Below the pieces are notes generated by a model that had not been told where the DNA came from, did no database searches, and worked only from the letters and a program-made list of their open reading frames with translations. From contig NZ_PTJD01000001.1 of assembly GCF_002934625.1 (NCBI RefSeq), positions 124,001 through 188,000 on the forward strand: 64,000 bases of DNA. Direction: 5' to 3'. The first letter of the stretch is position 1. The number at the start of each line of letters is the position of its first letter. Shown here piece by piece: positions 38,752-39,608 of the stretch. This DNA is from Kineococcus xinjiangensis (lineage in GTDB: Bacteria > Actinomycetota > Actinomycetes > Actinomycetales > Kineococcaceae). The position numbers and the translations under genes were made by a program.

Positions 38752-38773
38752 GTCGTCAAGAATGGTTGACGAC
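38752..38773. promoter_or_regulatory. Operator 1 of the HTH/Clp_N operon
   Basis: GTCGTCAA-N6-TTGACGAC is a perfect inverted repeat. Its right arm contains the -35 element TTGACG (38766-38771). Confidence 0.8.
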
Positions 38774-38795
38774 AGCATGGTCGTCAACTTACATT
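38766..38795 (+). promoter_or_regulatory. Leaderless promoter of the HTH/Clp_N operon
   Basis: A near-consensus -35 TTGACG (38766-38771) and -10 TACATT (38790-38795) are 18 bp apart. The start would be at 38802-38803, which is the ATG itself, so the message is predicted to be leaderless. Confidence 0.75.
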
Positions 38796-38801
38796 GACGA
38801 C
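38780..38801. promoter_or_regulatory. Operator 2 of the HTH/Clp_N operon
   Basis: Identical arms GTCGTCAA-N6-TTGACGAC, centred 28 bp from operator 1. The -10 lies in its spacer and right arm, and it ends one base before the ATG. Confidence 0.8.
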
Positions 38802-38802
38802 C

Positions 38803-39039
38803 ATGCCGGAGCACGAGCAGGTGCTGGAGGACAGCACCGCCCCCGACCCCGCGATCGGACTGCGGGGCGTCGCCGCACTGCGGCGCCTCGCCGAGCGCCT
38901 CGAGGACCTCCAGGTCGACAGCGCCCGACGGCAGGGGTGGTCGTGGTCGGAGATCGCCGCGGCACTCGGGGTGTCCAAGCAGGCGGTCCACAAGAAGCAC
39001 GCGGCGCGCCTGACGGCCGCCGGGGACAGGAGGACGTGA
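38803..39039 (+). CDS. Small helix-turn-helix regulator
   Basis: A 78-residue DNA-binding protein with an N-terminal helical segment (LRGVAALRRLAERLEDLQVDSAR) and an HTH near residues 45-66 (SWSEIAAALGVSKQAVHKKH). ATG 38803 directly follows operator 2; no ribosome site is present, in line with a leaderless message. Its stop overlaps the next ATG (TGATG). The twin operators on its own promoter suggest autoregulation. Comparable HTH plus Clp N-domain pairs occur in many actinobacteria, without an established function. Confidence 0.85.
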   Translation: MPEHEQVLEDSTAPDPAIGLRGVAALRRLAERLEDLQVDSARRQGWSWSEIAAALGVSKQAVHKKHAARLTAAGDRRT

Positions 39040-39608
39040 TGTTCGAACGGTTCAGCAGCGCGGCGCGCCGGGCCGTCGTCGAGGCCCAGGAGCACGCCCG
39101 CGCACTGCACGCCCCCGAGGTCGGTGCGGAGCACCTGCTCCTCGCCGTCGCCTCGCTCGGCGACCCGGTCGCAGCCGCCGCCCTCGCGGACCTGGGCCTG
39201 GACGGCGCCACCCTGCGGGAGGAGGTGCAGGCGCTCTCGCGACCCGACGCCGCGGCACTGCGCACGCTCGGGATCGACCCGGACGACGTCCGGCGTCGCG
39301 CCGAGGAGGCCTTCGGCGCGGGAGCGCTGGACTCCCCCGCACCCACCCCCGCCCGGCGCGGCCCGCTCCAGCGCCTGTTCGGCCGCGACGGCGGCCACAT
39401 CCGGTTCAGCGGCGCCGCGAAGGAGGCGCTGGAGAACTCGCTGCGCGAGTGCCTCGCCCTGCACCACGACGCGATCCGCCCCGAGCACCTCCTGCTGGGA
39501 CTGCTCAGCAGCGGGCGCACGCCGGTCGCCCACCTCGTGCGGCAGGCGGGCGTCGACCCCGCCGCGATCAGGTCCGCCGTTCTCGACCGCCTCCGCGGCG
39601 CCGCCTGA
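39039..39608 (+). CDS. Stand-alone double Clp N-domain protein
   Basis: A 189-residue protein formed of two Clp_N repeats. Repeat 1 is MFERFSSAARRAVVEAQEHARALHAPEVGAEHLLLA and repeat 2 is HIRFSGAAKEALENSLRECLALHHDAIRPEHLLLGLL, joined by a Pro-rich linker. There is no Walker motif or M-domain, so it is not a ClpC ATPase. It may act as an adaptor or decoy that binds degradation tags or competes for ClpC partners. It overlaps the HTH gene by one base and has GGAGG within the HTH end. Confidence 0.85.
   Translation: MFERFSSAARRAVVEAQEHARALHAPEVGAEHLLLAVASLGDPVAAAALADLGLDGATLREEVQALSRPDAAALRTLGIDPDDVRRRAEEAFGAGALDSPAPTPARRGPLQRLFGRDGGHIRFSGAAKEALENSLRECLALHHDAIRPEHLLLGLLSSGRTPVAHLVRQAGVDPAAIRSAVLDRLRGAA

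Follow-up and report, generated by a model that had tools for sequence, protein, structure and literature searches.

A putative two-gene relative of the mycobacterial ClpC2 switch in Kineococcus xinjiangensis, with a free Clp_N protein under tandem operators

The window analysed here, a 64,000-nucleotide stretch of the Kineococcus xinjiangensis genome, carries at positions 38752-39608 a small locus that we read, with a probability of about 0.6, as a two-gene relative of ClpC2: an autorepressed Clp_N decoy switch that would sense a Clp-directed compound, rather than ClpC2 itself. The basis of this reading, namely the operators, the promoter, the gene order, the conservation and the pocket residues, is present in the sequence. 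Repression, drug-induced release and the sponge effect were demonstrated by others for the fused relative only and are carried over to this locus by analogy; reading of the window sites by the HTH protein, contact between the two proteins and the kind of compound that acts as the inducer are our inference.

Mycobacterial ClpC2 is a one-piece protein with an HTH and a Clp_N part, which autorepresses via tandem CGTCAAC-n5-GTTGACG sites (Taylor 2023, PMC10030653), which overlap both promoter elements, -35 and -10, in front of a gene presumed to be leaderless (PMC10030653). The released or excess protein sequesters cyclomarin, takes the ligand from ClpC1 and protects the cell, thereby blunting the compound (PMC10030653). 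The earlier note had called the inducing signal of the window locus unknown, which is too strong given that clpC2 is derepressed by cyclomarin, with 263-fold mRNA, and by heat about twofold (PMC10030653). Pocket occupancy alone is no guarantee of induction: in a 2026 study (PMC12913811), M. tuberculosis ClpC2 bound ecumicin and ilamycin yet was induced by neither.

On this model, dimers of the 78-residue HTH protein would occupy both operators, one at the -35 and the other from the -10 to the ATG, and keep both genes off. The Clp_N protein would amount to the ClpC recognition domain in free form, and filling of its pocket by a Clp-directed compound of the cyclomarin type, or perhaps by unfolded protein, would lift the repression, most likely since Clp_N would stop helping the HTH protein to stay on DNA. 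Clp_N in excess would then soak up the compound, and ClpC would be spared. Given that HTH and Clp_N are fused in ClpC2, the separate proteins of the window are suggested to work together.

The operator arms are identical and exact at both sites, GTCGTCAA-GAATGG-TTGACGAC at 38752-38773 (operator 1, no strand assigned) and GTCGTCAA-CTTACA-TTGACGAC at 38780-38801 (operator 2, no strand assigned), which confirms the two perfect-arm N6 repeats reported earlier; the 6-base spacers are unlike, and the operators lie 28 bp apart, tandem spacing in relatives being 27-29 bp. A promoter scan of the region gave a single sigma-70-like match on the + strand, TTGACG-18 bp-TACATT (9/12 matches, 0.0 expected), with the predicted -35 at 38766-38771 inside the right arm of operator 1 and the predicted -10 at 38790-38795 inside operator 2, in agreement with the promoter drawn in the earlier note. 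Operator 2 ends 1 base before the ATG at 38803, and since only eight bases lead from the last base of the -10 (38795) to this ATG, a leaderless transcript starting at about 38803 is predicted. No further operator match with up to 3 mismatches appeared in the 64-kb window, shuffled windows gave a mean of 0.12 matches, and 0/100 shuffles gave two. The genome-wide search that had been proposed as a check found no operators but these two in the 4.6 Mb genome when up to 2 mismatches were allowed, and the bare 10-base core GTCAA-N6-TTGAC is likewise confined to these two sites. On the genome-wide and shuffled counts, chance repeats are rejected.

The first gene, at 38803-39039 on the + strand, encodes a putative HTH autorepressor of 78 aa (P0001), assigned from its ORF, Pfam, profile comparison and an AlphaFold2 model. 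Pfam placed HTH_23 above the cut-off, and the model (mean pLDDT 86.8) has a long helix followed by the HTH, the core of which spans residues 48-65 (WSEIAAALGVSKQAVHKK; 38944-38997, + strand) with the recognition helix SKQAVHKK and model helices 48-55 and 59-76. Residues G45, W48, L55, V57 and Q60 are invariant in 28 P0001 relatives. When a profile of P0001 relatives was compared with solved structures, the antitoxin RelI (3.2e-9) and the ClpC2 N-domain 8ADA (3.1e-4) stood above the rest, and fused genes carry the HTH sequence SWTxIGxSMGVTKQAAQKRF; homology between the P0001 HTH and the ClpC2 N-domain is supported by this profile match together with the fused-gene sequence. Searches with the P0001 model itself returned nothing significant in Foldseek (best E 0.88) and generic HTH folds only in VIA-align (Z up to 5.6), neither 8ADA nor 9SDC being among the matches listed by either. 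RelI (Rv2664; PDB 9SDC) and its DUF2812/DUF3887 fusions fall by this profile into the same HTH family as P0001, and the kinship of RelI with the ClpC2 HTH has been noted previously (PMC13284704). However, the partner of RelI is the toxin RelS, whereas the window HTH gene overlaps a Clp_N gene, and for RelSI the authors saw neither inverted repeats nor any sign of DNA binding (PMC13284704).

The second ORF overlaps the first by one base (TGATG) and encodes, at 39039-39608 on the + strand, a Clp_N protein of 189 aa (P0002; model mean pLDDT 88.5), in which Pfam found Clp_N in two stretches (7.7e-24) and no ATPase module, as the earlier note had described. By sequence its nearest neighbours are ClpC1 N-domains, and the model has the ClpC1 N-domain fold, its best structural matches including complexes of ClpC1 with cyclomarin, rufomycin, lassomycin and ecumicin. 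Clp_N repeat 1 (residues 1-66; 39039-39236), an insert (residues 67-117; 39237-39389) and Clp_N repeat 2 (residues 118-187; 39390-39599) follow one another on the + strand. Sequence comparison showed that all three cyclomarin-contact residues of ClpC1 have retained equivalents, F2 in repeat 1 and F123 (F80) and E132 (E89) in repeat 2. Among 132 split Clp_N proteins, F2 is present in 127, the F80 equivalent in 122 and the E89 equivalent in just 91, and the pocket may therefore serve other ligands. The insert has the motif ALxxLGIDxDxVRRRxExxFGxGALD, the GID part of which is specific to the split proteins (120/132 split, 0/27 fused, 0/24 ClpC); the model shows additional helices there (69-76 and 81-92), and this segment may be a contact or docking surface. 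Compared with the N-terminal domain of ClpC or ClpC1, P0002 thus shares the fold and the ligand pocket but differs in lacking the ATPase modules of those proteins and in having the additional insert. To our knowledge, ClpC has no HTH partner.

Compared directly with ClpC2 (Rv2667; PDB 8ADA, 8AD9), the window shares an HTH part and a Clp_N part, the TTGACG half-site, tandem operators that cover the -35 and -10 at a spacing of 27-29 bp, a predicted leaderless transcript (the window start site being a prediction) and the three cyclomarin-contact residues. The differences are these: ClpC2 is a single polypeptide and its operator is CGTCAA-N7-TTGACG, whereas the window has two ORFs and the same half-sites around N6; the insert is absent from ClpC2; and its R189, a suggested DNA contact, corresponds to Ala140 of the window protein, while its R185 is matched by R136. 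What is known is therefore the switch design, and what differs here is the two-gene split with a six-base spacer. The earlier note missed that the arrangement is published for ClpC2, that the pair is common in Actinomycetes and that the same genome holds a second pair.

The HTH was found in 86/149 genomes of the order and 263/395 of the class, with Streptomyces, Kitasatospora, Actinomadura, Jiangella and Virgisporangium among the named holders of close relatives. Operators were counted at loci picked by the HTH alone, those picked by the operator itself (L041-L070) being excluded from counts and totals. With counts that stand for related sequences, many of them from Streptomyces, and not for independent events, a perfect GTCAA-N6-TTGAC precedes 123 of the 132 canonical split pairs, all of which are two separate ORFs like the window pair, and N7 precedes none (0/132); this is the outcome for the comparison of orthologous pairs already envisaged in the earlier note. 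Fused HTH-Clp_N genes have N7 in 27/27 cases and N6 in 0/27, and an N6 operator also precedes 32/42 HTH genes without Clp_N. Tandem spacing is mostly 27-29 bp in every class, and shuffled upstream regions gave essentially zero operators. In the split loci with a tandem pair (n=121), TAnnnT lies 17-18 bp from the site-1 TTGAC in 111, an in-frame start codon follows site 2 by 2-4 bases in every one (121/121), and the spacer of site 2, unlike that of site 1, keeps TA at positions 3-4 (110 and 116 of 121). This conserved promoter and start geometry supports promoter-occluding repression and predicted leaderless transcripts across the split family, and it supports the earlier proposal of a self-controlled switch in which the HTH protein probably acts as the repressor. 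As a separate observation, one locus (L223) has three consecutive N6 sites upstream of its HTH gene and no evident same-strand gene downstream.

Taylor et al. assigned the DNA binding of ClpC2 to the Clp_N domain (R185, R189) and regarded the N-domain as a dimeriser (PMC10030653). Our comparison suggests instead that the HTH, not Clp_N, reads the operator, because the same operator precedes HTH genes that adjoin exporters, hydrolases, a sirtuin, DUF3024 or PNPOx-like genes without any Clp_N. Fused ClpC2 likewise carries the HTH, including TKQAAQKRF, which is missing from crystal 8ADA; owing to proteolysis the crystallised chain stops at V72, just short of the recognition helix, and a DNA-binding role of the HTH may have gone unseen for that reason. 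The two arginines point in the same direction, since ClpC too has R185 without exception (24/24), and R189, Ala in the window protein, is Arg in 22/132 split proteins. Moreover, tests with the isolated ClpC2 CTD and a dimer mutant pointed, by the authors' account, to the need for a dimer (PMC10030653), and it is the N-domain that forms the dimer. On the other side, all fused proteins (27/27) have Arg at R189, so that Clp_N may add a DNA contact in ClpC2, and the double mutant bound DNA less well (PMC10030653).

The spacer length tracks the gene architecture, and the operators track the HTH rather than Clp_N, since N6 sites also precede HTH genes without Clp_N; in this way the comparison directly probes DNA recognition by ClpC2. 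With slightly better than even odds, we propose a general actinobacterial switch cassette, in which a single small HTH repressor, acting on a leaderless promoter through GTCAA-N6-TTGAC sites in tandem, would serve exchangeable cargo (Clp_N, exporters, hydrolases, sirtuin), the HTH and not Clp_N would read the DNA, the published Clp_N site of ClpC2 would be wrong or incomplete, and split Clp_N would be a second antibiotic-sensing sponge coexisting with ClpC2.

The same cargo genes weigh against the decoy switch, given that an HTH beside exporters or enzymes without Clp_N need not rely on Clp_N for sensing; the insert peculiar to split Clp_N and the E89 equivalent, kept in 91/132, weigh against it too. 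The HTH could sense a signal by itself, through a ligand, a modification or its own degradation, Clp_N being one of several possible cargo genes, and its occurrence with the same operators before ABC exporters, beta-lactamase-like hydrolases, sirtuin, DUF3024 and PNPOx-like genes would fit this. We nevertheless hold it to be unlikely, as the HTH protein of about 78 aa has no evident ligand domain in its AlphaFold2 model, and in ClpC2 it is Clp_N that bears the ligand site and CymA that weakens DNA binding (PMC10030653).

A somewhat less probable view is that Clp_N, switched on by unfolded proteins, serves chiefly as a holdase or substrate decoy and sequesters antibiotics only incidentally. The approximately twofold rise of clpC2 on heat, the holdase role suggested for ClpC2 (PMC10030653) and the variable E89 equivalent of the split proteins agree with it, but the heat response is tiny against 263-fold by cyclomarin, and F2 and the F80 equivalent are kept in 127/132 and 122/132 split proteins. 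We doubt more strongly that free Clp_N acts as an adaptor or inhibitor of ClpCP, altering substrate choice through binding to ClpC, ClpP or Clp adaptors. Adaptors do dock on the Clp_N fold of ClpC, the MecA complexes 2y1r and 3pxi being among the structural matches of the P0002 model, and the conserved insert could serve as a docking surface; however, P0002 has no ATPase module, and ClpC2 works by removing the ligand from ClpC1 (PMC10030653). Among the roles raised in the earlier note, decoy or stress sensor fits ClpC2 (PMC10030653), and nothing was found that supports an adaptor role. That the operators are a chance or general actinobacterial element has a negligible probability, as the genome has just the two copies at this locus, shuffles give close to none, and the positions are conserved across 132 split loci.

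Several antitubercular natural products target ClpC. If the decoy switch is real, it would be a second, distinct and widespread system built the same way, present also in Streptomyces and further antibiotic-rich genera, and sensing and soaking up of Clp-directed compounds would be common in Actinomycetes. We found no experiment on any split pair in the literature, no published Clp_N and HTH pair in Streptomyces in the open-licence literature, a weak negative, and no report of clpC2 as a self-resistance gene in cyclomarin or rufomycin clusters, one such cluster being reported with a ClpX-like gene (PMC8068612).

In a Clp_N tree, a branch set each of the split, fused and ClpC groups apart from the other two (support 90, 99 and 97), in a quick tree whose deep order is unsure. 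Split and fused forms also occur together in single genomes (G064, G079, G177, G238, G395, G438 and G511), for example L013 with L277 in G064 and L134 with L240 in G395. With separate tree groups and coexistence in genomes, the split form looks more like a paralogous line than a broken ClpC2, and a recent gene split of ClpC2 is unsupported.

The K. xinjiangensis genome holds a second HTH gene, followed by a degenerate Clp_N gene, on contig C7 (G000:C7, about 156.3-157.3 kb; L007:1151-2061). Its promoter has an asymmetric GCAAC-N4-GTTGAC twice, 28 bp apart, the sole two copies in the genome. Each pair thus has an operator type of its own, which may insulate one switch from the other. A further HTH protein of this genome, with a different C-terminal domain, has no such operator (L276:1149-2132, G000:C13).

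Half-size ABC exporters lie directly behind the same HTH and N6 tandem operators, in the place of Clp_N, at L084 and L104, both of the same order, and at L109, L079, L102 and others. The HTH upstream of them is apparently an undescribed exporter regulator, a non-exhaustive literature search having found no published description. Downstream of the HTH there are also beta-lactamase-like hydrolases (L088, L093, L095), a sirtuin (L237), an Abi_2 protein (L239), DUF3024 (L110), a PNPOx-like protein (L103) and a GrpB protein (L077), and a perfect operator is absent from L077 and L239. Relatives of the L007 type carry an SRPBCC (polyketide-cyclase-like) domain behind Clp_N, and at L028, L029 and their relatives the HTH adjoins such a Clp_N-SRPBCC fusion, which is possibly a small-molecule sensor.
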